Source: a virus. Taken from it: DNA of 45,761 nucleotides. This document shows, in pieces, positions 2,294-32,200 of the stretch. The DNA is taken from positions 1 to 45,761 of the IMG/VR virus record IMGVR_UViG_3300021197_001777; one strand, given 5' to 3'. The position numbers were made by a program, and so were the translations under genes. Below the pieces are notes generated by a model. It was given only the letters and a program-made list of their open reading frames with translations, did no database searches and was not told the origin of the DNA. Numbering within the stretch: the first letter of the stretch is position 1; every line of letters starts with the position of its first letter.

Positions 2294-3088
2294 ATGACTA
2301 TACTTGATCGTAACACTTTGATTGCTGAACAACTCATAAGAGAGTATGTGCGGGAAAGAATTAAAACTAAGATTACTGAGACCGCTAAGAATGAAGCAAG
2401 TCTCAGAGCCTCTGTCCGTAAACTTCTTATAATGGAAGCTGAGACTGGAACAGAAGAGCCCAGCACCTATACTGGTATAAATGTTCTTGCTGATCTATTA
2501 AGGAATATCATCCCAACCATTGAAGATGATTATACTATGCTGACCACCTCCAAGGAACAAAGAGATTCTTTTAGAAATCACTTAGTACATGCGATTAAAA
2601 ACTCCCTAAGACCTATCGAAGTAACTGCTCAAGCTGAAGATGATGATGCAATGGGTGAAAATATTGTATTTGAAATAGATGCTGATGTTCTTACTGAGAA
2701 AGTAACAATTGATATGACAGATGATGAACTAGGGTCTGATGACCTTGGATTGTCAGATGAGTTTATTGATATAGATAAAGAAGAAGAAAAAGACGAGTTT
2801 GTTTCCATAGAAGACCAAAATGAAACCGGTCGTAACTTTGCGGCAGAAACATTTAAAAGAGTAGAGAAACAAATAGTAGATTCTTATGATATGTTAGCAG
2901 ATGATAAGGATAGAGACATGTTCTATGATTACTTGGTCACGAATATGCTCCTGTATTTTGATAAGTTTGAATCAGATTTATCCACAACGCTTCCAGATGT
3001 AACTACCCCAGAATATGAAGAAGAAAAAGATTCAGCAGAAGCAGTTGATAATGAAGAAGAAACTTCAGATCTCGGTCTAGACTTATAA
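2294..3088 (+). CDS. Acidic hypothetical protein, 264 aa
   Basis: I do not recognise this protein. It begins 11 bases after the preceding stop, with a weak GGAGA-type site about 13 bases before the ATG. The first 50 residues are basic and helical (REYVRERIKTKITETAK), the middle and end are strongly acidic (repeated DDE, EEE and EEEKD clusters), and the region around residues 185-225 is again helical. There is no signal peptide or membrane segment. An acidic, helical protein next to the preceding possible virion-associated gene could be a scaffold or assembly factor, but nothing in the sequence proves it. It is the last gene before the tmRNA locus, and no clear intrinsic terminator follows it; an AT-only 5-bp hairpin just after the stop lacks a proper U run. 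Confidence 0.75.
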   Translation: MTILDRNTLIAEQLIREYVRERIKTKITETAKNEASLRASVRKLLIMEAETGTEEPSTYTGINVLADLLRNIIPTIEDDYTMLTTSKEQRDSFRNHLVHAIKNSLRPIEVTAQAEDDDAMGENIVFEIDADVLTEKVTIDMTDDELGSDDLGLSDEFIDIDKEEEKDEFVSIEDQNETGRNFAAETFKRVEKQIVDSYDMLADDKDRDMFYDYLVTNMLLYFDKFESDLSTTLPDVTTPEYEEEKDSAEAVDNEEETSDLGLDL

Positions 3089-3250: not shown

Positions 3251-3279
3251 TTGACAACTATTACGTGTTGTTGTATAAT
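3251..3279 (+). promoter_or_regulatory. Consensus sigma70 promoter of the tmRNA
   Basis: TTGACA (3251-3256) and TATAAT (3274-3279) both match the bacterial housekeeping consensus exactly and are 17 bp apart. Initiation would fall at about 3286-3289, right at the mature 5' end of the tmRNA (GGGGGUA at 3289). Host RNA polymerase with its major sigma factor could therefore transcribe the RNA from the start of infection, without any phage factor. Confidence 0.88.
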
Positions 3280-3288
3280 ATTATCAAT

Positions 3289-3613
3289 GGGGGTAACCGG
3301 TATCGACTGATGGGGAAGTAAAAACGGTGCAAGGGTGAGGGAAGCGTGGCTCACTAAAAACGCTTAACATAATAACTGCAAACAATAACGCAGAACTAGC
3401 ACTAGCAGCTTAAAAACCTGGCTACGCTTGAGGCGACGACAGCCAAAAAACAGAAAGTCGTATTTGCGATTCTAAGTGCTTTTGATTATTTTTGCCGCAA
3501 ATAAAATGATCTAGTCAAGTGGGCTGTCCGACGATAAAAACAGACCTAACCTTGTGAACGACCTTTTTATGGAGCTAGACAAGACGGGAGTTCGATTCTC
3601 CCTACCTCCACCA
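3289..3613 (+). ncRNA. ssrA: One-piece transfer-messenger RNA (tmRNA)
   Basis: The tmRNA rescues stalled ribosomes: charged with alanine and carried by SmpB, it enters the A site, its reading frame replaces the broken mRNA, and the product is tagged for proteolysis. The 325-nt RNA has a 7-bp acceptor stem formed by GGGGGUA (3289-3295) and UACCUCC (3603-3609), discriminator A and encoded CCA. The third pair is G-U, the alanine identity element. A T arm GGGAG-TTCGATT-CTCCC and a D-loop-like GGTATCGAC are present. The tag frame starts at GCA 3378 and encodes ANNNAELALAA then TAA, with the usual ALAA degron end. It has its own promoter and terminator and lies between phage genes. No smpB is visible, so host SmpB is presumably used. 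A host ssrA at a prophage junction is unlikely because phage genes flank both sides and no integrase is seen. Confidence 0.95.
3378..3413 (+). other. tmRNA tag reading frame (ANNNAELALAA-stop)
   Basis: The resume codon is GCA at 3378-3380. The frame then reads AAC AAT AAC GCA GAA CTA GCA CTA GCA GCT and ends at TAA (3411-3413). The 11 encoded residues end in ALAA, the signal recognised by ClpXP/ClpAP in bacteria. With the alanine carried by the tmRNA itself the added tag is 12 residues. Confidence 0.9.
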
Positions 3614-3636
3614 GCCGCCTTCGGGCGGCTTTTTTA
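3613..3636 (+). terminator. Rho-independent terminator of tmRNA
   Basis: A perfect 7-bp stem AGCCGCC/GGCGGCT (3613-3619 and 3624-3630) closes a TTCG tetraloop and runs into a T tract (3630-3635). The stem starts at the last base of the encoded CCA, so 3' trimming is needed to expose the mature end. The hairpin also separates the tmRNA from the phoH gene. Confidence 0.93.
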
Positions 3637-3694: not shown

Positions 3695-4999
3695 ATGAAA
3701 AAAACTATTATTCTAGATACAAACGTATACCTCACAGAGGTTAGTTCCATCTTATCTTTCGGCGAGGACGATATTGCTGTTCCAACCATTGTTTTAGACG
3801 AGATAGACAAACATAAACACAGACAGGACACAGCAGGTCTTAATGCCCGTACAATGAACAGAATGTTAGATTCATTCAGAGAAAACGGGAGTCTTATGGA
3901 TGGCGTTCCACTCGGCGAGGGCAAAGGTAATGTATTCGCTGCTCATTTCGATGAGAAATATATGCCGCCAGGGATGAAAACAGATGACTCAGATAATAAG
4001 ATTATCGCTATTGCCCTTAGACTTATAGAAAAAGGTCATATAGTGGAGGTAGTTTCTAGAGATCTCAATATGAGAGTCAAATGTGATGCACATGGAATAA
4101 AATGCCAGGATTACCAGCCTCAGAAAGTTATTCAGTCAGTTGATAATCTGTTTGAAGGGACTCAGGAACTTGAGGTTGAATATAGTACTATAGATCGCTT
4201 TTATAGCGGCGACCCGTTCTGCTTAGAAGAGCAGGAAATAAAACTTTTCCCAAATCAGTTTTTACTTCTTAAGAACACAGCTTCTAACAAATCAGCTATT
4301 TGCAGATTTGTTAATCATAATACACCCCTCAGGAAAGTGAATAAGTATAAGAATATATGGGGTTTCTCAGCACGAAACAAAGAGCAACAATATGCAATGG
4401 ACCTCTTGTTTGATAAAGATGTCAATATTATATCCCTAACTGGTCCTGCTGGTACAGGTAAGACATTATTAGCTACTGCTTGTGCTTTAGAACAAGTAAT
4501 GAACACAACCAGTTCTAACGGGGGGTATGACAAGCTCATTATTACTCGACCCGTTCAACCTATGGGTCGGGATATTGGATTCCTTCCGGGGACATTAGAA
4601 GAAAAAATGATGCCTTGGATTGCTCCTATTCGAGACAACTTAGAACATCTGTTTGGTGATCGAACAGCTTTAGATATGCAAGTAGAACAAGGAACTATTG
4701 AAATCGAGGCTATGACTTATATCCGTGGTCGCTCTATTGCGAATGCTTTTATGATCGTAGATGAAGCTCAGAACTTAACGGCACACGAATTAAAGACTAT
4801 AATAACAAGAGTGGGGCATGGGACCAAGTTAGTTCTTACAGGGGATATTCAACAGATAGATAACTCTTATGTTGACTCTGTTTCTAACGGTCTTACTCAC
4901 GCTGTTGAGAAGTTTAAGGAATATAACATAGCTGGTCACGTCACTCTTACAAAAGGTGAGCGTTCAAAACTAGCGACTTTGGCATCGGAGATCTTGTGA
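3695..4999 (+). CDS. phoH: PIN-PhoH fusion protein (PhoH2-type RNase and RNA-dependent ATPase)
   Basis: The protein has two domains. Residues 1-130 form a PIN nuclease domain: IILDTN gives the first metal-binding Asp (D8), LDEID gives D35/E36, and DSDNKIIA near 95-105 supplies the later acidic residues. Residues about 230-434 form a PhoH P-loop ATPase with Walker A GPAGTGKT (250-257) and Walker B MIVDEAQN (353-360). PIN-PhoH proteins are known as sequence-specific RNases with RNA-unwinding ATPase activity, and PhoH-type genes are very common in marine phages, where the role is unsettled. At 434 aa it is about full length. The ATG follows a CGGGGA-type site. It is the first gene after the tmRNA terminator; I saw no convincing promoter at 3637-3694. 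Its TGA overlaps the GTG of the next gene, so the two are probably coupled. Confidence 0.92.
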   Translation: MKKTIILDTNVYLTEVSSILSFGEDDIAVPTIVLDEIDKHKHRQDTAGLNARTMNRMLDSFRENGSLMDGVPLGEGKGNVFAAHFDEKYMPPGMKTDDSDNKIIAIALRLIEKGHIVEVVSRDLNMRVKCDAHGIKCQDYQPQKVIQSVDNLFEGTQELEVEYSTIDRFYSGDPFCLEEQEIKLFPNQFLLLKNTASNKSAICRFVNHNTPLRKVNKYKNIWGFSARNKEQQYAMDLLFDKDVNIISLTGPAGTGKTLLATACALEQVMNTTSSNGGYDKLIITRPVQPMGRDIGFLPGTLEEKMMPWIAPIRDNLEHLFGDRTALDMQVEQGTIEIEAMTYIRGRSIANAFMIVDEAQNLTAHELKTIITRVGHGTKLVLTGDIQQIDNSYVDSVSNGLTHAVEKFKEYNIAGHVTLTKGERSKLATLASEIL

Positions 5000-13748: not shown

Positions 13749-16700
13749 ATGACTATCAATAGACAACAAAAAAACATAATCAATCCATATGTTCTAGAAG
13801 ACATAGAATATGATTTTACTTCAAATAAAAGAAACTTATTTGTTATAAGTGCTATACACGAATATTATATTTCTTCTTTCAACTTTCTTCCGCAAAATAA
13901 GATTCTAAAACTATCAGTACAAGAACTACAGTCCATGGGGATAGAGAAAGAAACTCCCGATCTTACTATCACAGCACAAGATCTACGGGCATATTCTTTT
14001 CTGTATCCGCAAAACTGCAACCTAATCGAGGCAGGTGAAACAGTAGAACTTGAACTGATAGGGGAAACTCTCGCAAACGACAAACTTTCAGCATTAGTGA
14101 ATAAACTAGACGACCGAGGTCAGTTAGATCTTTATACTACAAACTCATCGCCTACTGCTATACTTCCAGAAAACATCAATAGCACTTCTATAACCACCGC
14201 TTATACAAAACTCGTTGCTATCTTACCGTTCCATTCTTCGGAATATAAAAAACTAATATATAAATCGATAGGGGAAGAACTTGCCCTTTCACTAGATGAC
14301 TATCAGAGTGTTGAACAGTTATCATTATCTACAGTAGCTAACGCCTACATCAATAACGATGAAAATGTAGACATATATGACTGGCGTTCAAACTGTGGAC
14401 CTGGAACAGAAACAAGTAAGATCTATTACAATAGTGTAGATGATAAGTTCTATTTCACAGAAAGAACAGACTCATCCTCAAGTGAGTTATTTGACCAAGG
14501 GTACTGGTCTCGACTAGGTCGTGAAAACGCATCTCAAGAGATGATAAAAGCTATAAAGAAAGGTGTCAGTGAGATCTTGAAGCACACTGGTCGCTTCTCC
14601 ACTGCTAACTTGAATAGAATCCTTGCTATGGGTGTTGGTCTTCCTGCTGAAGATGAAAAACTAAACTTTTTATCTCACTTGGATGTCCGACCTGGATCAA
14701 GGTGGATGTATGCTATCCGAATACCAAGAAGTATAGTGGAAATGGCTCCAGAGAATAATGATGTATTTATATCATATGATGAATTTGAACTGACGCCCCT
14801 GGAGAGAGCTACTATTTTGCTCGACCCAGAAAAGAACAAATCATCAATAAAGACCCTAATAAAAGCAGAAAACCTAGTAATACACCTCCCCAGAGTTACT
14901 AGAACTTTCCTAACATACGCCAAACAACTACAGGAAGAAGATATTCAACCAGAGGATCTACGAGGAATAGATCTAGGTAGAGAAATTAGGCTCCTGGATG
15001 GCTTTGTTGATGATCTGGCACTTGCCTGTATTTACAATAAGGTCCGGCTAGACGACGAAGATATTATAGAGTTCTCATTCACGGATTCTTATGGGTTTGA
15101 ATATTTTACATTCAATGGTTATCTCATGACCCGAGCAATCGGCAATAAAAACTTCTATCCCGAAGAAGAAGAGGGGGTCGAACCAAATAAGGCACAGAAG
15201 ATACTAAACACCTTCTCAGATTCAACCCCAACTACATTTAGCGCTATACATAATAGCCATAGAATATATAACGACTACAGTATTACGAGTGAGGATACCC
15301 TAAAGCCTTGGCTTGACTTTTTCAATGACTATCTATATCCCTCCGTTGAGCTATCTGCGGAGAAAATAAGGAAGAAGTCGGCAAGCTCCAAAACAAGAGC
15401 AAGAAGGAATAGAAGAAAAAGTATATTCACAAAAGTCTCACAACTTGCAAAAGAGGGAAAAGAAGTAGAAGACTTTTACCGACGTATCAATACAAGTAGG
15501 AACCCTTATTATCAAATAGGCCGAGCTATTACAAGTCTTGATTGTGATACTGGACAAGCTGCGGCACTAAAAGATGTAATGTCTATTTGGTCATTAATGG
15601 ATTCTAAAATATCCATAAGAGGTAAAATTCGCCAAGCTATTTTACTTCTTAGAGACGAGGTGGTCAAAGATTCTGTTACAAGGGCTTATTTGACCCAAGC
15701 TATACAAGCAGAAGAAAACCCACAGTTATTCATACGTGATATTGAAAAACAAATCAATGAACAAATCTTTTGCTCCCTAGATGTGCTAGGGAATGTTATA
15801 GAAACATCATTCCTAGATCCCAAAGATATGAATCCCACTAAAACGGCGGCTGGACCGACACCGGCGGCAATGGCGACTAATGCACTAAAGGTGGGCTTAC
15901 AAGTTCCCAAGGGATGGAAAGGGACGCAGAAAAGCCTATTCTCAAAAGACGGAGATCTTTATGAGGGTATAATCATAAAAATAGTCACTGCTTATCTTAA
16001 ATCTATAGCAGTTGGTATTGGTAAGGACGTTATCAAGGCAGTATTGGGGTGCGGACCAAACGACAATAGTTCAGACCAACTTGATGATGCCCTAAGAGAT
16101 CTAAAGTACGGTTTATTAGACCTAAATCAATATGTTGATAGTCTAGATCTTATTGAGATTGCAAAAAGTGTAGATCTTGTCAACGTTTCCACAATTGAGG
16201 TTGACGGAACGGAACAAATAACAAAGACTGATCCAACAAATCTTCAGTTATCTACTCTTATCACAGATATATCAAACATGTGTACTCCAAGAGAACTCGA
16301 CCAGCTTATATTTGGCTCTGGTGATAATGTTTTATATGAGCTTATTCTAGAAACTGTTACTGATGGTGTTATTACTTTCCTTGTGGACAGTGATATTGAC
16401 CCTAACGGCGAAGAAGAGCGGATTACAAGAACAATCGATCCTACGGTATATGGGTCGTTTGAGTTCACAAAAGATAAGATCAAGAACTTCTTCATAGCTT
16501 TAGGCGACGCTATGAGAGACGAGAACATAGAAGACCTCGCTCAGATGAATATCTCTCCTCTCGATGCGTACTGTTCTAATTTAGAGCCCAACATCGGGCT
16601 AGATAGACTAGGGTTCAGTATCAGCCCTGAACAACTCGAAGCACAATATGCCAGTATTGCGGAAGATAAAATAAATAAGATAAATGCTTTATGTGATTGG

Positions 16701-19493
16701 CTAAAAGACTTAGAGAACATCCTTAAGGGCTTAGAAGAACTCTTGAATGATCTTCCGTTGATGAAGCAGTATGAGGATTTATTGGAATTCATAGCCAAGA
16801 TTTCTAATATGTTATGGAAATCTTTATCCGAATGGTGGGCTGATTTGTGGGATGAGGAGGTAGAGGATGACGCCACTGTCACTAGAAACCTCTATTCAAC
16901 ACAACTTGGGAAAGATTTATATTATACAATCAGAAAATTAATTTCTACCAGGGTTATGGCAGCAAATTTTAGAACTGCTTCAGGATCCGATGGTTTCATT
17001 TATTCAGCCCCGTCCCGGAATAGGTATCAACAATTAGAAGGATTAAGTGTCCAAACCAGTGGTACGAGGATTCAAGTGGGGGATAGTTCACCATTGATGT
17101 TGCCATATCCGCCGCCTGATGTCATTGATGATGACACCCATTGGCTTCCACTCGGTAAATATGATGATGAATTAGCAAGACCTAAAGACGGCGAATCATC
17201 TTATGCTCTGAGAACAAGTCCACCGGTTCTTAGGACTCCTTTCATCCAAACAATTCGCAGCGGCGGAGGGGGCGTGGCGAAATGGGATAAACTATATGAT
17301 CAGTTGGATGAATATCTGAAACTCTCTTATCAAACTAACGGACCTGATCAGTGGATCAGCGATGGCCCAACAAACAATGCACGATGTTTGATGTCTATAG
17401 AAAATATTGATGCTGGTGGAGTCCAAATCAGAAGGGCAGTAAAAAACAAACAAGGCATAATAGAGCAAAAAACAATAGCTCAATACATTCCTGAGCCAGG
17501 AGATATAGAGTCGGACCAAGAATCTGTAGATTACTATAGACTTTTATCAAACATAGGACAAAGATTATCAGGTGGTCCAATCCTTACTCAACCAAGGAAT
17601 CGACTTCTAATGCCTTCTAGAAATGACGCACTAATAAGAAATATTTTGGATTCCTCTATGTTTGGGCTCATCGACAATAATGGTTCTTTTAGTCTCACAA
17701 CTCTTGTGAGAACTTATGATAATGCACAACTTTCAACAATTCTTGAAAGTTATAGACTTACAACTTCCGAATCCAACGCTGACACTGAATCCGGCGTCTC
17801 GAACAGATACAGACTCGCCATCAGCGACTTTGGAGTAGACGGCAACGCCTTAGACACAGAAGATGAGTCCGTATCTATTTCGGGGTATAGATATTTCATT
17901 GATCAAAATATCAACTTCTCTTTCTCTAACGACACTGGTAAAGCAAGAATGAGATTGTACCTGAAAGGAACAAATAAGCCTCTTTATCAACCAAATAGTG
18001 AAGATTGTGTTACAAATAAGGAAGTGTCCATTGCTAATGCAATAGCATTATCGATCCAGGCACGAATGCAAAGATTCTTTATGAACGTTGTTTCTATGGC
18101 ATCTCCTTTTCCTCATTGGAACAGTTTCGGTACCAAGAAACTCGTTACTGATTATTTATTCAGGAAAATATATGATGATTTAGAGACAAGAGGCTTATCT
18201 AATCTAATTTTCGAGTATGCAGATATTTTTGAGAAAGTTTATATTGATAATCCCGAAAATGGTATCTCATCTTTTAATCAAGATAATCCAAGGGAATATA
18301 TAAGAAGTTTAGTAGAGCAAATATATTCTACAATGCTTGTAAATGTAACAGAAGATGTCCATCGCCGAGGCGATACATCTCCATACTCTCGTTCAGTAAC
18401 TAGGGATAGATATACGGGTCTAATAAAAAGATTTTATGAAGTACTTGTATTACTTATAGCAGCTAGGCTCGAACGTGAAGGCTCAACTTTATTTGGGATG
18501 TCCCGAACAGGAATGCAAACAGCTTCAGATTTTATTACCACCGATCTTTTAGATGAAAACGGAGAACCGACAGCAGAAGGGTTTTATTATGGTGCATATT
18601 ATTTCCCAATTGGATTTTTGATCGCTGAATACTTAATAACTTCTGATAGTTTGGTCAATATAACAAGAAATTTTAAACATAGTCATTATAGAAGCCTTAT
18701 AGAAATCGCCAATGCAGATGATGCAATATTATCATCTATAGTAGAACAAGATGTAACAAGGTATTCTTCTCAACACGTCGGGTTCCCCTATAGTCTCAAT
18801 ATACCCAGTGTTAATTCCGACCAAGAGGTCTTGAAAACATATTATTCAGTCACGGAAGCTCAGAATAGACTTGAGGAACTAGCGTCTATCTTGGGTATTG
18901 ACAGCGATTACTTCACTCAGCATTTGCGTCTTTTCTTGGCAACTAGGAACGAGAAACTATTGGCTGAAAAGAATATTCTCTTAGACAATACTCAAACCTT
19001 CCTAACTCTTTTAGAAATGGAAGGACAGGACCGGCTGCTCCCAGCACAAGATACACAATTAGCTTTATTCAGAGATTCTATTCCGAAACAAGTCGATAAA
19101 ATATATTCACAACAGGTGGTAATAGATTTTATTTCAAAAGTGTTAGATGGATCGTTACCTTCCATTGAACAATCCTTTCCTTCAATATTATCTTGGACTT
19201 CGTTGAATGAAGATTCTGCACCTTTCTTGCAGAATTCATATGAACAATTCTTTGAGAATAAGATTATCGATCCGGATACATTCTTATCGTTCCCAGGTTT
19301 TGATATAGAGGAACTATATAGCCGTAGTCTACAGTCGGTACCCCCTCAATATAAAATAGTTGGGCACGCTAATATCGAACAAGTTATCTCTAAATTCATA
19401 TCTGAAGTAAACAAATCTTATGAAGATGATAATTATAGTGACTTTATCGCTGAATATAATGAACTAAAAACTTTAGTAGGAGCTTATAAATAG
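13749..19493 (+). CDS. Very large structural (baseplate-region) protein, 1914 aa
   Basis: The ATG is 4 bases after the previous stop, without a clear Shine-Dalgarno, suggesting coupling. I see no domain I can name. Residues about 538-559 are strongly basic (KTRARRNRRK). Residues about 739-766 form a hydrophobic helix (IIIKIVTAYLKSIAVGIGKD) that might insert into a membrane or be buried. The segment near 975-1035 is helical with a Trp-rich SEWWADLWDEE. The protein lacks the long repetitive heptads of a typical tape measure. It lies between the spike-like protein and gp25, so it is most likely a baseplate or tail-tip component. Its last bases overlap the gp25 start (TAGTG). The reading frame is intact across 5.7 kb. 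Confidence 0.8.
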   Translation: MTINRQQKNIINPYVLEDIEYDFTSNKRNLFVISAIHEYYISSFNFLPQNKILKLSVQELQSMGIEKETPDLTITAQDLRAYSFLYPQNCNLIEAGETVELELIGETLANDKLSALVNKLDDRGQLDLYTTNSSPTAILPENINSTSITTAYTKLVAILPFHSSEYKKLIYKSIGEELALSLDDYQSVEQLSLSTVANAYINNDENVDIYDWRSNCGPGTETSKIYYNSVDDKFYFTERTDSSSSELFDQGYWSRLGRENASQEMIKAIKKGVSEILKHTGRFSTANLNRILAMGVGLPAEDEKLNFLSHLDVRPGSRWMYAIRIPRSIVEMAPENNDVFISYDEFELTPLERATILLDPEKNKSSIKTLIKAENLVIHLPRVTRTFLTYAKQLQEEDIQPEDLRGIDLGREIRLLDGFVDDLALACIYNKVRLDDEDIIEFSFTDSYGFEYFTFNGYLMTRAIGNKNFYPEEEEGVEPNKAQKILNTFSDSTPTTFSAIHNSHRIYNDYSITSEDTLKPWLDFFNDYLYPSVELSAEKIRKKSASSKTRARRNRRKSIFTKVSQLAKEGKEVEDFYRRINTSRNPYYQIGRAITSLDCDTGQAAALKDVMSIWSLMDSKISIRGKIRQAILLLRDEVVKDSVTRAYLTQAIQAEENPQLFIRDIEKQINEQIFCSLDVLGNVIETSFLDPKDMNPTKTAAGPTPAAMATNALKVGLQVPKGWKGTQKSLFSKDGDLYEGIIIKIVTAYLKSIAVGIGKDVIKAVLGCGPNDNSSDQLDDALRDLKYGLLDLNQYVDSLDLIEIAKSVDLVNVSTIEVDGTEQITKTDPTNLQLSTLITDISNMCTPRELDQLIFGSGDNVLYELILETVTDGVITFLVDSDIDPNGEEERITRTIDPTVYGSFEFTKDKIKNFFIALGDAMRDENIEDLAQMNISPLDAYCSNLEPNIGLDRLGFSISPEQLEAQYASIAEDKINKINALCDWLKDLENILKGLEELLNDLPLMKQYEDLLEFIAKISNMLWKSLSEWWADLWDEEVEDDATVTRNLYSTQLGKDLYYTIRKLISTRVMAANFRTASGSDGFIYSAPSRNRYQQLEGLSVQTSGTRIQVGDSSPLMLPYPPPDVIDDDTHWLPLGKYDDELARPKDGESSYALRTSPPVLRTPFIQTIRSGGGGVAKWDKLYDQLDEYLKLSYQTNGPDQWISDGPTNNARCLMSIENIDAGGVQIRRAVKNKQGIIEQKTIAQYIPEPGDIESDQESVDYYRLLSNIGQRLSGGPILTQPRNRLLMPSRNDALIRNILDSSMFGLIDNNGSFSLTTLVRTYDNAQLSTILESYRLTTSESNADTESGVSNRYRLAISDFGVDGNALDTEDESVSISGYRYFIDQNINFSFSNDTGKARMRLYLKGTNKPLYQPNSEDCVTNKEVSIANAIALSIQARMQRFFMNVVSMASPFPHWNSFGTKKLVTDYLFRKIYDDLETRGLSNLIFEYADIFEKVYIDNPENGISSFNQDNPREYIRSLVEQIYSTMLVNVTEDVHRRGDTSPYSRSVTRDRYTGLIKRFYEVLVLLIAARLEREGSTLFGMSRTGMQTASDFITTDLLDENGEPTAEGFYYGAYYFPIGFLIAEYLITSDSLVNITRNFKHSHYRSLIEIANADDAILSSIVEQDVTRYSSQHVGFPYSLNIPSVNSDQEVLKTYYSVTEAQNRLEELASILGIDSDYFTQHLRLFLATRNEKLLAEKNILLDNTQTFLTLLEMEGQDRLLPAQDTQLALFRDSIPKQVDKIYSQQVVIDFISKVLDGSLPSIEQSFPSILSWTSLNEDSAPFLQNSYEQFFENKIIDPDTFLSFPGFDIEELYSRSLQSVPPQYKIVGHANIEQVISKFISEVNKSYEDDNYSDFIAEYNELKTLVGAYK

Positions 19494-21709: not shown

Positions 21710-23221
21710 ATGAGCATAAAAAAATATTACGCTTCAAAAGACAATACCATTACAAATGCCTTCAAGGGCAACCTGTTGACAAGGGGTACTGGATCTAATA
21801 TGGGTGCTTCTGATATTTTAGAAGCATTTGTCATTCACGGTCAAACAAATGATAGTCTTTCTGCCGGACAGTCCGAGGGAAATGCTAACGCTGCCGAACA
21901 AAGCAGAATAATGATTCAGTTCCCAATCTCGACCATTATTGCAGACATGGCTTCAGGGGAACTGCCATCAGATGTCAGTAAGATAAAGTTCCACCTGAAC
22001 CTATATAATGCCCCTCACGGCGACTCTACCCCACTTGATTACACTCTAGACGTATTTTCCTTAGCTGGAGCCTGGACTGAAGGTCGTGGATTGGACATGG
22101 AAAACTACACAGATATAGGGGTATCCAACTGGATCAAAAAAAGCTCAGGCAACGACTGGACAAAACCTGGTGGAGATATTATCGACGCCGCCGCAGCACA
22201 AAAGACACTCTACTTCGATACTGGGCTTGAGAATATATCACTCGATGTTACTGACCCTGTTACAAGATGGATTGACGGAACAGATACAAACTATGGTTTC
22301 TTGATTAAGTTCCAAGATACGGCAGTCTCTGGCTCTGATTCATTTTATACCAAGAGATTCTTCTCAAGAACAAGTGAATATTTTCATTATCAGCCAACCC
22401 TCGAAGCCCGCTGGGATTCGACAAGAAAAGATAACAGAAGAAACTTTTATATTAGCAGTAGTATTGCAAGTTCAGAAGATAACCTGAACACCTTGTTTCT
22501 TTATAATATTGTAAGAGGTCAGCTAAAAGAAATACCAGGACTTGATAACCATAGTTTGGCTGTTCAACTATATTCTGGATCCACTACCCCAGTCGGAAAT
22601 GCTTTGTCCATTGTGGATAAAGACGGAGTTGCGACAACAAGCGTCAAGGCAAAACGCTTGGTTGAAAACGGCACTACTGTGACTGGAATCTATACAGCCT
22701 CGTTTGCTTCGACAAGCTCATTTGATACAGTCTACGACGTTTGGCACACAGGCTCTGGGGCAAGTAGAATTAATTTCTACACAGGATCCTATGAGCCACG
22801 ACAAATAGATACATCAGATAACCTCTATTCAGAAGAATATATAACTTCAATAACAAATCTTGAAGATTCATATACTCAGGGACAAAAACCAACTGTTAGA
22901 ATATTTGCTAGAAAGAAAGACTGGCAGCCTAACATTTATACGGTCGCAACGGCTGAGACAATGCCAGACATTATAGAAGATTCTTATTATCGAGTACATC
23001 GTGTTATAGACGGTTTGGAAGTTATCCCATACGGCACTGGAAGTGTTAATAATAACTTCGGTAGATTGTCATATGATGTGAGCGGTAGTTATTTTGAACT
23101 AGATACTTCCTGTTTGGAGCCGGGGTATGCATATGGAATTACATTTGCGTACTATTTACAGGGTAGATATAAAGAACAGCCTGAGGTGTTCAAGTTCAAG
23201 ATAAAAGAAGAAGATAAATGA
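21710..23221 (+). CDS. Virion protein with DNRLRE-like beta domain, 503 aa
   Basis: The ATG starts 2 bases after the gp6 stop with no clear ribosome site, so coupling is likely. Residues about 60-240 look like a DNRLRE/CBM-type beta sandwich: QSRIMIQFPI, LDVTDPVTRWI, NYGFLIKFQD and FHYQPTLEARW follow the strand order of that family, found in surface-binding and fibre proteins. The C-terminal half (PTVRIFARKKDWQPNIYTVA and on) is a pattern I associate with marine phage structural proteins. A role as a baseplate-attached adhesin or fibre connector is likely. It overlaps the following giant gene by 4 bases (ATGA). Confidence 0.7.
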   Translation: MSIKKYYASKDNTITNAFKGNLLTRGTGSNMGASDILEAFVIHGQTNDSLSAGQSEGNANAAEQSRIMIQFPISTIIADMASGELPSDVSKIKFHLNLYNAPHGDSTPLDYTLDVFSLAGAWTEGRGLDMENYTDIGVSNWIKKSSGNDWTKPGGDIIDAAAAQKTLYFDTGLENISLDVTDPVTRWIDGTDTNYGFLIKFQDTAVSGSDSFYTKRFFSRTSEYFHYQPTLEARWDSTRKDNRRNFYISSSIASSEDNLNTLFLYNIVRGQLKEIPGLDNHSLAVQLYSGSTTPVGNALSIVDKDGVATTSVKAKRLVENGTTVTGIYTASFASTSSFDTVYDVWHTGSGASRINFYTGSYEPRQIDTSDNLYSEEYITSITNLEDSYTQGQKPTVRIFARKKDWQPNIYTVATAETMPDIIEDSYYRVHRVIDGLEVIPYGTGSVNNNFGRLSYDVSGSYFELDTSCLEPGYAYGITFAYYLQGRYKEQPEVFKFKIKEEDK

Positions 23222-26200
23222 GCGTAAAAAAACTATTTGACAATAACAAACAAATCGTTACTGTTGGAAAATTCTTAAAGCTTGGATCGCCAAATCAACT
23301 TGGTGATGGCATTGAGTCTGCGAAGCATTTAGAATTAGCTTTAAAGAAAAAAGACTATTTTCTTCCACCCGTAGATTATTCAAATCCAGAAAACTTTGTA
23401 AAGTTCGGCTCTGCGGAACAATACTACAAAAATGCTTTTGATTATATTTCAAGTTATTATCCATACGACGGATCTAACTTAGAGAGGGTTGAGTTTTATA
23501 ATAAAATCAATCCTTTAGAGAAATATATACTTGATGATATATACCCAACATCTACAGGTTTTATTACCATAGGCTCGAACTATGGAATACCTTCTGTTAA
23601 CGCAACAGGTTATTATTCCACACCAACAGATGAATATGTCCAAATTAAAGGCGGTCCACATTCTGGCTCCATATACAATGAAACAAAAAACAGAACATCT
23701 AACTTAGAGTTTGGTGGAACAAGTGGTACAACTGTAGAGTTCTTCTTGAAAAAGAACACTTTAATTAAATCATCCACTGAATCTGAAAAACAAGTAATAT
23801 TCGATTTGTGGAACGGGTCTGCCACAACAGCCGCAGATTATGGTCGATTGAGGATTGAACTCGTATCAGGTTCAGAAGACCGCTTCTTTGTAACAATGAA
23901 GTCTGGCTCAAATGGCTTTACAAATGTCCAGGTACCATCGGCGGGCGCTCAGACAATCTCTGACGGGACATTTAGAAACTTTTCTTTTGTCTTCAATACT
24001 TCTGGATCATCACCTACAATTGATTTCTTTGTCAATGGTACATGTGTACAAACAGGTATCGGCGGTGCAGTTGGTGATATAGCACTGGTAACTGGTTCTA
24101 TGATCGGTAACATTGGCGCACTGAGAACAGATATATCTGGCTTACCAGGCGCTGCACAAGGATACGGAAAGTTATCTGCCTCTATAGACGAATTTAGATT
24201 TTGGAAAGCCAATCGAAACGATGAACAGATTGGAAGATACTGGTTTGATAATGTCGGCGGCGGTACAGACGCTTATGATGCTAACGTTTCACTGGGTGTC
24301 TATCTTAAGTTTAATGAAGGCATAACTCAGACTGCAAATGTTGACCAGGTGTGTTTGGATTATTCTGGTCGCCTTTCAAACGGTCTATTCGTTGGTTATG
24401 ACGCTTCTCGAAGCAGGGACACAGGTTCCGCCATCAACTCATTGAACCTAGAGTCAGTGGTTGAGGTCGGCGACCCAATCGTTAGAACTGATAACGCAAC
24501 TTACTCATCCACTCGGGCTAAATATATTCTATCTGGGAGTAATTACGATTACAATAACAACGCAAGATTGTTGAACCATTTCCCGAACTGGATTATCGAG
24601 GAAGAAGAAGAGGGTGCAAATGAGCTTGTAAATGTAACACAAATCATTTCAAGTTACTTTGATACACTTTATAATCAACTAACTTCTCTCAAAGAGTTGA
24701 AACATATAAAATATATTAGTGGAAGTATGGAATCTTCCATCAATGAGTATCCCTATAACGATCGCCTTGTTGAATCAATGGGTCTTGAAATGCCAGAGTT
24801 CTTTCAGAATGCTGGTACGCTCCAACAGTTCTTACAGAGAGATGAACAAATAAACTTTGACAACAAGCTTGTCGAAGTAAAGAACTCTATTTACAAGAAC
24901 ATTTATAATAATCTTGCCTTTATCCTTAAATCAAAGGGTACAGAAAAATCAATAAGAAACTTTATAAGATGTCTGGGTGTCAGTGAAGAGATTATAGCTC
25001 TAAACACATATGCAGATAATTCAGACTTCGAGATAAAGAGTAACTATGTTTCGACAACTAGTACGAAGAAGTTCGCTGATTTTACAGGCTTATTAAAACA
25101 GGCTGATGATGAAGCAACAGTTTATCAGTATCCAGAAGTTGGCAATGCCAATTCTAAGGGGTTTATAACAGGTTCATCAGCTATTGAAGAGTTCGCTTTC
25201 TCTTTACAAAGCGAAGTAGTATTTCCAAATAAGGACAACCCTGAGCTTTTATCATATGATATGCCAAGGGTTCTGACTTCTTCTATCATGGGATTTCACA
25301 CCCCAGCAGACACAAATCAGACTTCTACAGACCTAACCTGGGAAACAGCAGGTAATGATTATGGTCTGCAAATATATCTTGTCAGATCACCAGGTCAATA
25401 TGCAAAAGTATATCAACCAGACTTTCTTGTTCGTGACGGGTATTTCTTAGTAAAAGATCGTGCGGGAACAACACTTCTAACAAGCTCTATATTCAATGAT
25501 GTATATGATAACCAAAAATGGAATTTGACGCTTTCTTTGCGTCCTAAGAAATACCCATTCAATGATGGTATCAACGGAGCCGCTGTCTCAGCAGATGGTT
25601 ATACTTTAGAACTATATGGTGTTAATTATGATACTGGAATCAAGAGAAATAGTTTCTTAGCGTCCAAAGCTGTATCTTATAATGATGGTTCGAAAATTAT
25701 AGAATCGAACAAGCGTGTATATACCGGTGCCCATAGAACAAACTTTACTGGAAGTGTTTTAAATAACACTGACGTTAGAGCTTCTAGTGTACGATTCTGG
25801 TCTGATTATTTACCTACTGGGACTCTAGACCTACAAGCGAAAGAGGCAGATGGGCATGGTCGCATAAGACCACAGAAGAATGCTTATTCCTTTCAGGCAA
25901 ACAATCCAGGGGTATATATACCAGAAATACAAACACTTGCACTAAACTGGGATTTTGCCAACATCACAGGAAGTGATGCATCGGGCCGCTTTACTGTTTC
26001 TGACATTTCTTCAGGTTCAGCAGCAGCAGATTACCCAGCAGAATATCAAGGATCAGTCTTTAGTAAGTTCAACCTCCGCCAGCATACTGGTCGAGGAGAT
26101 TTCTTCGGAGCTAGCTTTACCCCCGTAAGAAAAGAATATATTTATGTTGACAAACTCCAGATACCTGAGTATATCGGTGGCGATGAGATGGTCAAATCTC

Positions 26201-29200
26201 TCAACTCTGATGAACAAACTTTCGGTATCTACACTCGACCAGAAACATTCTACTTTGCTATAGAAAGAAGCATGTATCGAAGCATCTCTAACAGGATGCT
26301 GGAACTGTTTGCTAGTATCGAAGATTTTAACAATCTAATCGGTGAACCAGTAAACAAGTATCGCTTGAACTACAAGCGAATGGAAAAAATAAGAGAAATA
26401 TTCTTTAGAAAAGTAAAGAATGACATTCCTGATTTAGAGAAATACGTTGATTATTACAAATGGCTAGACACCTCAATGAATCAAGTCATTGAAGAGTTCT
26501 TCCCAGAATCTGCCCGTCACGCTAGTGATGTTCGTAAAGTTGTGGAAAATCACGTACTTGAACGACCAAAGATCAGACATAAGATTTCTATTCTTAGAGA
26601 TAAGCACCCAGGCGGACCAGGCGGGATAGAAGGCTCTCCGAGGGGCACAGTATGTCTGGATATTCCAGGCTGGGGTAAAAACCACCACCCCATTTCTGGT
26701 CGAGAAGACGAGAACTGCACCTGGTGGAGAACCCGAGCAGAGAGAGATGTATCTCCTTTGGTAGCTACTGGCGGCGTGTTGGTCACTCGTAATGCTGTAT
26801 TGAATGCATTATCTAGAGAAATCGATCCTATTTTAGATCGTGCTGATTTACCAACTCCAACTAATAAACAAACCGGCGCAAACTCTGTTGTCTGTTTGTC
26901 CGCAAAAATACTTCCTCCTTATTATGGTGGTATCAACCAAGATCTTAGTAAAAAGAGAAGACTACGAGACCTAACTTTTGATAGATTTGAAGAGTTAGAA
27001 GACTGTAGCGACGAATTTGAACCAAATCAAAAGAAAAAGATTGCATTCCGAGCAACCAAGGGCGGTGTAGAGTACAAGGGTAATCTTGTAACTCCATTCA
27101 CAGCATTGAGTTCAAGTGTTACGACGGGTTACAATGCCTCTTTGATTTCTAGCGGACTCACTGGAATCTCACTAACCAACATTCATGAAGATTCAGTTCA
27201 CCCTTATCGCCAAAGTGTACCAATGCAGGGTCCATTCACTGAGCGCTGGGTAGGTGGCATCCAAGCAAGGCACGTTGCCCCATTTAGAGTAACAGATAGA
27301 GCAGAGGAATATAGTTTAACAATAGCCTCTGGCGCTGGCTCGATAACAACACTTACTGTCGAAAATACTCCTAAAGGTCAATACCTAAGAGGCTTGGCTT
27401 CGAAATCGCCGGTAAACATTCAAAACATTAAAACTGTTGTATCGGGACACACTGTTGATCAGGGTGTAAGAGAAGTCGGCAACTACTCAAAATATTATGA
27501 AGTTGTACAGGGTAACGATAGATCCCAAACGAATATGGATCTTGCATTCAATGCTAGTAAATATTCATTCACTATGCCTTCGGCTTTCCTAACAACTCCT
27601 GCCCGACGAACAGCAGGATTGACAGGTTCAGCGGATTACCCTGCTCCTCGTCAGCGCCCTGACGTCGCCGCAACTGTTGTCTTGATCACGGATAGTGCGC
27701 CCATCGCCGCCGATGATGGCAAGACAATCATTATTGCAAATCACGACGGAAGTTCTGTTACCTTTACGATAACACCAGCCACGACTTCTGCAACTCAGAT
27801 CTCTCGTGCTGCATCTGGTAACGCCGATGACTTTGCTGACGCTATAAAAGCATCTATGGACCTTGCTGTTACGGCAGGAACTTTGAAAGGTACAGTGTCG
27901 GCTGTAGAAAACGATGGCAACGGAAACCCAAGAAAAGTAACAATAACTTCTGGTGTTGCTGGTCTTATAGGAAATAAAACTGTCAAGGGAACACTAATCA
28001 CTGGCGGCGGCGGAGAAGTTGTATGCAATCCAGCAGGTAACATACCCGGAAGCGGTAATGGTGCTTTAGCATTCACTGGCGGCGAAGATGCTGCTCGTTC
28101 AAATGAAACAATATTTGTAGACAGATTCTCATCCCCAGGTTCGAAACAAGACTCAAAACAGCAGTTTAGAGATGTAAACTCAGACCAATATTCTCCAAAC
28201 AATGCATTACCATTCAGAAATATGGCGGTAAGGCAGCCTCACAATAATGATCTAAAAGATCATTCTCTCTTTGGTGGACTTGTTGGTGTTAACTCAGCTA
28301 CAGTAAATTTGATTACAGATTCCGCTCCAATCGCTGCCGATGATGGTAAGACAATCATTATCACAAACCACGATGGTAGTATTGTTACACTTACTATGAC
28401 ACCAGCTACTACTTCGGCAACTCAGATTTCTCGTCTTGCTTCCAGTAATGCTGATAACTTTGCAGATGCCATCAAGGCATCTATGGACCTAGCCTTCGCT
28501 GCGGGGACACTAAAATCTACCGTATCTGACGTTCTAAACGACGCCACGCCCAACCCAAGAATGATTATCTTGACCTCAGAAGTTAGGGGAACAGTAGGTA
28601 ATAAATCAGTAAGCGGAACTTTGATAACTGGTGGTGGTGGAGAAGTGATTTGCAATCCTGCTGGCAATAATCCTGCCGTAGGTAACGGTACTCTAGCATT
28701 TACTGGCGGAACTGACAAACCTTCAGTTCATAAAGTACAAAGGAATGGGGTACAACAGCTAAGAACAGGCGTGACCTATCCAGCATCAACCGTTATAACT
28801 GCCAGTATTTATGATAATGCTTTTGTAACTCGCCCCGTGCCTGCTGCTGATAGATCCCAATGGACATCTTATCTAGTGGGCGCTGATAACTCTTCTATGT
28901 ATGATCAATATATTTCCTTGCGTTCAAGATATCCTGAGAATATTTCTTTTGCTTCCCAGGATCCTGTAACTGAAGCTTCATTTAACTCTGCTACAGAAAA
29001 CAACTTATCCTTACAAAGTCAGTTCAAGTGGTCTAATAACCGTAACTTTGTACCTTGGAAGCAGATTAGTAACTCTGAGAATCCATACGCTAAGTTCTAC
29101 ACAAAGAACAACACGTATGAGCTAGCTCCTCAAATAGTCGAGAGTAGTCAGGTTGGTACTGGTCTGCCTGTAAGATCTTTTGCTGATGGTTCAAGAGGTA

Positions 29201-32200
29201 CAATACCTACAAGTGTCCGTCAAGTCAGTGACCGTAAAGGTAATCTATCAAACTATTATTACTCGTTGTCACTTAGGGAAGCTCCGGTAACATCCAGATA
29301 CAAGCCGTTGATCCACCAGATCAGAACTCCTTTAGGTACTCCTGCATCAACATCCGATGAAGCCGTTACCGTAAGTTTGAAATATAGCTATGGTAATGAT
29401 TTGATGGGATTTGCCAACAGAGAACTAAACAGACTTATTCAAGGAAAGACCAAGTTCTCTTATGGGACAATCAAGAGACCATATGAAATCTTGAGAGAAC
29501 AGTTTGTTCCAGCAGCACCACGCTCAATTAGTGGAACAGACTTAATAAAAGTATTCTCATACTCTGAAACAATATATCCAAAAGAAGTGTATACTTACTT
29601 GTCAGGGTCTAGGGCAAGGTTGTCATTCGCTAATGATTTCTGGAAAGATGACTCAATTGTTACAAGTTATAATGTTGGGGCGTTTGTTAAGTACAGTGAT
29701 TTACTAACTCCGGCAAATCAAACAACCTTTGTCCGACAGTTACCAAGAGTTCGAACCCCTTTCACTACATCTCAGGGATATGCTGTCAAAGCAAAAGAAA
29801 ATACTCCTTTCAATACTTTGGACGCATCTTTCCCAATAGCAACTGGTGCCGGCAAAGCATCAATCTGGTCACTTGATTCATTCATGTATTCTGACTCCAC
29901 AACCTCATTATCGACTATTTTAACTGCATCTGCCCCTGTTTTGCTGGGCGATGCCGCTACAATGCCTTGTGGTGAGTTGATGATGACACACTATGGAACA
30001 GTCGATGACGGTGTAACAAATACTCTTTTAGCCAATGGTACAGCGTCTTATCAGACATCCAGTGTAAACTCGGCACAATATGTATATAATGTTCCTGTTA
30101 CAACTTTCGCACAACTTGCTGTAGCAGCAGCCGCAGCACAATGTTCTGTTACAATAACCAGTAATAATGCAACTCTTTTAGACCCATCAGCCGCTGGTGA
30201 TCCCACCTCTGGAACACCCCCCAAGGGTATTAAAATCTATGATAACTCGGGCAATTTTGTTACTTTCTGGTTTGACCAATCTAAACCACCCCTTTCACCT
30301 AATCGTCTTGATGCCAATAACTATCAGGCAGGTATTGGATCAACTCCTTCCGGCGTTGATGTCGTTGCCCTTGGGTTATATAATGCCATTGCCTTGGCTA
30401 AAACCAATGCAGAACTTTTAGTAACAGCCGTATCACCAACAACCGGCTTGGTGACAGTCGTAGCTGATAATCCCGGCGCTGCAATAAACACAACTGCGGT
30501 TGGTGGCACAGGCATTGGTACTGTGGCTACTCAAATACCTTATGCAGGTGGTGTTGACGCTGGTGTAAGAAACGGCGGCGAAAGACCTGAGCCACGATCT
30601 CCTGGTTCTGCCTATACAAGACCCGCTTGGACTGCTGGTATCGAGCGCCGTTATGTTGACGGTGGGAACAAGGGAACTTTAGCACAAGCACAATATCCCT
30701 TCTATAACACTTACGAAGAGTTTGCAAAAGATATTAGACTTGTGGCTAAAGATCACACGATCGTACCAGAGTTTAGAGTTAGTGAACATGTTTCTCAATA
30801 TGAACAACAAGGATCTCTTTTCTCTATTATATCTGATTCCCTTGAAATTACGGGATCAAACAATAATAACTTCAATGGTGCGAATCCACTCTTTTATGAG
30901 AGATTCTCTCAAACTGATGACATTGAGTTTTTAGAGGACTTTATGCCAACAAACGAAGGTGATAGAAACTACATCTTCAATAAGTACCCAAGACACTTCG
31001 AGATAAACTCAGAGGCTATCGTTAAGCTTTTACCATATGATGGTTTCTATCCAGTGGATAGGACTTTAGACTTAGCTACATTGTTTAGTTCGTCTTATGG
31101 TCCAAACGCTGTTATAACTGGTACCTCTGCCGCTAACAAAGCTTCATGGCGCTCAATCTTGAGACCCTTTTATTCTCCAGGTATTATGTACAATGCAATC
31201 AAATCTGGGCTTGCTGTTGATTATCCAATAAGAAGATCTGGCAGAAATGATACACAATTCGAAGATGTTTCTGTAAGTAACGCAGATCCACTTAAAGGTT
31301 GTCTTAGTGGCACTTTAACCGCCTTGACTCCCGAGGGAAGTATTCCGGGTCAAAGAAGAAGAAATCTTACAAATGCTGAATGGTCCTCGGCTGCAACAGA
31401 TGCAAACAAATTCTATTGGGCAGACCGGCTTCCTTTTGAAACAATACTTGACCCAGCGGAAGCTCTGAGAACAGGTTTCGAGAGACCGACTGTATTGTCT
31501 GATATTAATAGTTTGATGTCTCTCGACGCAAGCGGCTCTATAAGCAACAAGAGTCTTGATGACTCTCTTTATAAGAAAGCTGTTTCTAACTTTTTAGCCA
31601 ACGTACCGAAGTTCTTTCTCAAGAAGAAAGAAAACAAGTTTGGCTCAAATGGAAATCTTACAAAGTTTGTCTCTCAGTTCGGCGCACCTGCAATATTTGG
31701 CGGGGAAACAGCCAACCGAGTAAGAACTGTGAATGTCGAGAGAGATTCTGCTTATATGATGGAAATTGGACTTCTAAAGACAGAAGACTTCAGTTTCTAC
31801 AGTAACCCATATGCTTTCGGTATTCCAACTGCAACAGGTTCAGTTGCTTGGGAATCACTAGCAACAAACCAAACCCCCTCAGGTTCAGACTGGCCTAGAC
31901 GTCGAGGAGAGTTTGCTCCATACACTCCTCCACATTATTACGGACCCTCATTAGCTCGTGTTACCTTCATGCCTATCGGGGACAAGGAAGAATATACACT
32001 AGAAGAGATCTTAAACAATGATCGTGGTGAAGTTTTCGTGAGTTTCCTCAATGAAAGTGGAAGCTACTATGATATTACTTCCGGCTCCTTCGTGGATAGA
32101 GATGGTAATCCCGCCATCACTACTGCTAGTCCAGACTATGGCTGGAACCGTGCTTGGCAGAATCGTATGGATATTGATGCTTCTATTAGCATTGGAAATG

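Follow-up and report, generated by a model that had tools for sequence, protein, structure and literature searches.

A complete tmRNA (ssrA) gene of 325 nt with an encoded CCA is located on the plus strand at positions 3289–3613 of the window, by which we mean the whole stretch of viral DNA analysed here (45,761 nucleotides). Its assignment is supported by a match to the Rfam family RF00023, by conservation within a clade of related viruses and by 20 covarying base pairs. From these comparisons, we consider it probable that the gene is functional and that it has long been retained in one clade of marine myoviruses which belong to the T4 superfamily at a considerable distance from T4. This uncultivated marine clade is thereby added to those known for phage tmRNAs, and the gene is fixed in it instead of sporadic, which suggests that selection probably acts on ribosome rescue in these phages.

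Identity and structure of the tmRNA gene

The preliminary description of this DNA had proposed a complete one-piece phage tmRNA with acceptor stem, T arm, CCA and tag frame, and had named Rfam and ARAGORN searches as checks. In the Rfam search (cmscan), RF00023 spans 3289–3613 (+) and model positions 1–374 of 374 with 90.7 bits (E = 4.3e-34) against a gathering score of 47 bits, and the match is collinear over the entire model, as expected for a one-piece, unpermuted gene. No Rfam family other than RF00023 was matched in the window, and a riboswitch partner of the type seen in phage Melnitz was thus not found. With ARAGORN, the outcome was divided: no call was made for the window gene at the default settings, but it was called at a relaxed threshold with the tag ANNNAELALAA. 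The default settings suffice for the tmRNAs of many relatives, which ARAGORN assigns to the ordinary type, none being called permuted. The window copy thus shows that ARAGORN at its default can overlook phage tmRNAs which Rfam detects. The limits given earlier for the gene, 3251–3636, take in the promoter from its −35 box onwards and the whole of the terminator. The minimum free energy of the tmRNA folded without pseudoknots (z −1.2) is unexceptional and uninformative.

The structure was examined in 37 distinct sequences by using 64 pairs, including pseudoknots, drawn from the window sequence. In this set, 95.9% of the cells were paired, a value which is biased upward by drawing the structure from the window, more so than the count of double changes. 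Changes on both sides were found in 20 pairs, amounting to 94 cells, whereas shuffles gave 28.5 such cells and slid controls no more than 17. The 5′ strand of the acceptor stem (GGGGGUA, 3289–3295, +) forms seven pairs with UACCUCC at 3603–3609; the stem is 100% paired, its seventh pair changes from A-U to G-C in four sequences, and the G3-U pair, the alanine identity element, is present in 37 of 37. The discriminator A and the encoded CCA follow the acceptor strand and complete the tRNA-like domain, in which the T arm (3586–3602, +; a 5-bp stem with a TTCGATT loop) is also 100% paired, with compensatory changes in two pairs. Both stems of PK1 (3336–3365, +) are paired in all 37 sequences and are invariant, so they provide no covariation evidence; the first stem of PK4 and the central helix are likewise invariant. 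In PK2 (3432–3461, +), five of eight pairs changed on both sides, as did four of nine in the PK3 stem (3484–3511, +; 93.4% of cells paired; one stem counted and the second PK3 stem left out) and five of ten in PK4 (3514–3546, +), where the pair at columns 252/274 is mostly unpaired. Collectively, the window RNA has the architecture of a tmRNA, with an alanine-accepting tRNA-like domain, a tag frame and pseudoknots PK1–PK4 as predicted from its sequence.

The gene was also said to have its own promoter and terminator, and both were recovered. A sigma-70-type promoter (TTGACA-17 nt-TATAAT, 3251–3279, +) matches the consensus at 12 of 12 positions, ends 9 nt before the 5′ end of the tmRNA and scores highest among nine sites of the region. 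The promoters of relatives reach at least 9 of 12 consensus positions in 28 of 46 cases, and several of those below this level retain TTGACA in the alignment, with TATAAC. Upstream of the tmRNA in three relatives (L034, L035 and L041), the usual −35 box is absent and an ACCG...CGGT stretch resembling an inverted repeat is found instead, so these copies may use another type of promoter. The intrinsic terminator (3613–3636, +), detected by scanning and folding, begins at the final A of the CCA and consists of the stem AGCCGCC-TTCG-GGCGGCT (3613–3630) and a T run; stem and T tract fold at −14.3 kcal/mol (z −3.8), and 42 of 46 relatives have a perfect stem.

Conservation of the locus and variation of the tag

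The loci of relatives (n = 50) were fetched from IMG/VR by the downstream PhoH protein, and the whole records were searched with RF00023. A tmRNA over the cut-off was found in 41 of the 50 records with a PhoH relative. In the clade with PhoH identity of at least 68%, every contig reaching far enough upstream has the tmRNA just before phoH, so the search for the same locus in related contigs, proposed earlier as a check, was positive in all informative cases; the only members lacking a full match (L019, L027, L039 and L050) are those in which the contig end cuts the tmRNA or phoH. Among relatives with 52–54% PhoH identity, the tmRNA is a few kilobases upstream of phoH in two (G043 and G048) and missing from that place in three (G041, G044 and G045), and one further record is cut. 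Since phoH occurs there without the tmRNA, the pair is not obligatory.

The gene order is conserved beyond this pair. The shared block reads gene-gene-tmRNA-phoH-gene-exonuclease-glycosyltransferases, and it was also found in contigs from a separate scan with the PK1 motif, which returned 47 IMG/VR virus contigs. Of the eight additional contigs with sufficient flanking DNA, seven (L098, L099, L105, L111, L118, L130 and L135) have the same order, and the upstream gene is present in the eighth (L096). In the window, a conserved hypothetical protein without a family match is encoded upstream of the tmRNA (2294–3088, +), and homologues with 51–60% identity occupy the same place in other contigs. 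Among 84,980 species genomes of bacteria and archaea, none matched the PK1 motif, which excludes host contamination. The synteny among virus contigs and the absence of the motif from cellular genomes both agree with the earlier statement that the gene is phage-borne and lies between phage genes.

The tag frame (3378–3413, +) was read from the sequence, in agreement with ARAGORN, as GCA AAC AAU AAC GCA GAA CUA GCA CUA GCA GCU UAA, with a GCA resume codon, the peptide ANNNAELALAA and a UAA stop. The alanine start, the 11 codons, the AA end and the UAA stop are retained in all alignable copies except one, and synonymous codon swaps (GCA/GCT/GCC, AAC/AAT, TTT/TTC, CTA/TTA and GCA/GCG) occur among relatives. 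Four tag types were found, ending in LAQAA (19 copies), EMAA (15) and QLALAA (4) or identical to the ANNNAELALAA of the window (6). Tag-type changes numbered at least 14 on the PhoH tree and 8 on the tree of the remaining tmRNA, counts that are rough as both trees are quick ones with many weak branches. From the two counts, it seems that the tmRNA genes are mobile between phages relative to their neighbour, and that tags switch within the gene as well. At least 80 tag-shaped loci, mostly ARAGORN-confirmed tmRNAs, were found in bacterial genome contigs, none with an identical tag among the matches listed, and the tag pattern was absent from 398 and 379 genomes of two groups. In the exceptional copy (L032:4607–4933, IMGVR_UViG_3300009129_001478), a small insertion shortens the tag to GCA GCU UAA (AA*); the sequence beyond the new stop has drifted, so this may be a true, nearly tagless tmRNA rather than a sequencing error.

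Regarding the phages themselves, the window contains PhoH and gp25- and gp6-like baseplate genes, and no head genes were found in it. Its 190,528-base relative G046 has relatives of gp23, gp20, gp21, terminase and UvsX, and gp23 was present in seven of seven records searched. The nearest deposited relatives of the G046 gp23 are Immutovirus, the huge phage LR756508, Mel-JY01 and RM378, which places the group by sequence in the T4 superfamily, yet far from T4. The label T4-like used at first is thus supported by the gp23, gp20 and gp21 homologues of G046, but is too close a term given how far these nearest relatives are from T4. Of the deposited phages, LR756508 and LR756500 have tmRNAs by RF00023, Mel-JY01 has a match limited to a 17-nt T arm, and Immutovirus has none; when the window tmRNA was compared as DNA with deposited phages, only fragments of at most 17% coverage were matched. 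As minor observations, G046 carries four tRNAs, and its loci L262–L271 encode PrkA kinase, SpoVR and DUF444 family proteins, these three being homologues of the stress genes yeaG-ycgB-yeaH, as well as a GroEL-like chaperonin, IMP dehydrogenase, an S-adenosylmethionine synthetase domain and ClpP. The tail region of the window contains two long open frames (23218–33639, 3473 aa; 13749–19493, 1914 aa) without Pfam matches, the shorter also without a PHROG match.

The PhoH neighbour and the proposed role of the tmRNA

The placement of the tmRNA next to phoH, noted before, was confirmed by a PF02562 protein encoded directly downstream (3695–4999, +), starting 81 nt past the tmRNA end. It is a PhoH2-type protein in which a PIN RNase domain (PF13638, 3e-23) is joined to a PhoH helicase ATPase domain (PF02562, 2.5e-52). 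The acidic quartet of the PIN domain (D8, E36, D100 and D123) and the Walker K and DE lie on a single chain, as in the PhoH2 class, and are invariant (45 of 45). The gap between tmRNA and phoH ranges from 50 to 346 nt among relatives (L030, L015, L017, L029, L021, L031, L032 and others): around half of the copies have 50–82 nt and the rest 217–346 nt, where the additional DNA may contain a small gene or a further promoter. In mycobacteria, PhoH2 acts both as an RNase and as an RNA helicase (PMC7390352). Cut mRNAs strand ribosomes, and a PIN-PhoH neighbour thus suggests a reason for a phage to carry a tmRNA, the combination of the two being an attractive one. The earlier idea that rescue is needed owing to mRNA degradation is plausible, and the adjacency, which is the sole evidence for the link, adds support to it. 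This conserved RNase/helicase neighbour offers a concrete and testable reason for a virus needing a tmRNA.

We propose the following sequence of events. During infection, a host-type RNA polymerase would produce a short independent transcript from the consensus promoter to the terminator. By analogy with known tmRNA biology, RNase P and exonucleases would trim it, host alanyl-tRNA synthetase would charge it via the G3-U pair, and host SmpB and EF-Tu would deliver it where ribosomes have stalled at the end of an mRNA. With the tag frame as the new template, translation would then resume, ClpXP-type proteolysis would take up the tagged fragment, and the ribosome would be recycled for phage translation. 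Cutting by PIN-PhoH together with the general mRNA breakdown in infection may generate the nonstop mRNAs that make an extra tmRNA worthwhile, a step suggested by the adjacent position of the genes and by what PhoH2 proteins are known to do. An SmpB gene was found in none of 20 related records, most of which are fragments (the bacterial control was positive), so the SmpB of the host would be needed. A fit of the phage RNA with the SmpB and proteases of the host is assumed here. A more elaborate version, in which host mRNAs, or all mRNAs, are cut by PhoH2, the stranded ribosomes are released by the tmRNA for phage translation and the tag ends are re-tuned among phages to suit a given protease, possibly a phage ClpP, is rather doubtful.

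The variable tags could also be read as the main point, such that stalled or host proteins are sent to particular proteases, perhaps the phage ClpP, for recycling amino acids or removing host factors. The differing tag ends (LAQAA/LALAA/EMAA) fit this idea, all 11 relatives searched that carry a tmRNA and measure at least 97 kb have a ClpP-family protease, in G043 and G048 the tmRNA is followed after about 0.9 kb by a ClpP-like gene on the same strand, and amino-acid recycling was put forward for phage Melnitz (PMC9004378). However, clpP is tens of kilobases away in the clade of the window (in G046, clpP at 73.3 kb and tmRNA at 117 kb), Mel-JY01 and G041 have clpP without a tmRNA, and the phage ClpP is divergent, its pairing with ClpX being only presumed; we regard tag redirection as unlikely to be the main function. 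ClpP is a known jumbo-phage gene (PMC7824862), and since phages lacking a tmRNA can have it too, its association with the tmRNA is suggestive only. No clpP was found among the window proteins scanned. The ClpP-like genes close to the tmRNA are at G043:C1:153219–153725 and G048:C1:33810–34310, and a second ClpP lies elsewhere in G043.

Still less probable, in our judgement, is a phage RNA that acts as a mimic or inhibitor, titrating SmpB or blocking host tmRNA, instead of performing full trans-translation. Mycobacteriophage DS6A has a truncated tmRNA with the tRNA-like domain, and a comparable molecule acts as a tmRNA inhibitor (PMC4131195); the lack of SmpB in the 20 related records and the AA* tag of L032 would also suit such a role. 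A decoy, however, would require the tRNA-like domain alone, whereas the mRNA-like domain, four pseudoknots, alanine resume codon, AA end and stop are preserved in more than 40 copies, which counts against the mimic.

The origin of the gene was considered as well. Host ssrA genes commonly serve as integration sites, and the window gene might be a recent capture of a host ssrA or an attachment-site remnant from a temperate phage. The authors of the Melnitz study proposed such an origin (PMC9004378). The integration-site remnant was rejected since no tyrosine integrase was found in 13 relatives (the control was positive), and recent capture is highly improbable in view of the full-length gene with its own promoter, its single fixed place in dozens of contigs and the lack of the PK1 motif in the 84,980 species genomes. 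Misassembly or a chance match, to which the negative default ARAGORN result might point, is ruled out for practical purposes by the E value, the helix covariation and the identical synteny in independent contigs, the last of which excludes misassembly.

Comparison with known tmRNAs

The functional, long-retained phage tmRNA that we favour extends a known phenomenon. The preliminary description called phage tmRNAs rare, which was an overstatement, since a published survey (PMC9004378) counted ssrA in 402 of 18,146 phage genomes, the carriers including marine myophages that infect OM43 and SAR11, mostly with two-piece genes, and tmRNA is also reported from huge phages (PMC7162821). Complete ssrA genes are present in mycobacteriophages Bxz1, Cali, Catera and Wildcat and in Bacillus phage G (PMC4131195), phages unrelated to the present group and likened to it by description only. 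A tmRNA was found in Bradyrhizobium phages in a study (PMC12656738) which cites that certain coliphages (lambda-immP22) depend on host tmRNA. What appears unusual in the group of the window, judged from sequence, is the clade-wide retention, the fast tag switching (LAQAA/LALAA/EMAA) and the ClpP of the larger relatives.

Like the window phage, Melnitz and the pelagimyophages are T4-type myophages of the sea that encode an ssrA close to an early promoter; however, their tmRNAs are two-piece (permuted), that of Melnitz is tied to a glutamine riboswitch, and the Melnitz type was present in 17 of 47 related contigs (PMC9004378), whereas the window tmRNA is one-piece, adjoins phoH with no other Rfam RNA and occurs in every informative contig of its close clade. 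Compared with bacterial one-piece tmRNAs (RF00023), the viral gene has the same architecture, with the G3-U acceptor, AA-ending tag, pseudoknots and CCA, but its PK1 sequence was not found in the bacterial genomes searched and the exact phage tags were not among the matches listed. The huge phages LR756500 and LR756508 likewise have RF00023 matches, and LR756508 shares gp6 and gp23 relatives with the group. Their tmRNAs are longer (about 410–450 nt, versus 325 nt in the window), the LR756500 tag is GNNAEMRMAA, and its phoH-like match lies about 55 kb from the tmRNA rather than adjoining it. For huge phages as a group, SmpB has been reported (PMC7162821), whereas it was not found in the 20 records related to the window. 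Besides its longer tmRNA, LR756508 has a second, short RF00023 match at 414804–414915 (58 bits, 112 nt), possibly consisting of a tRNA-like domain only.
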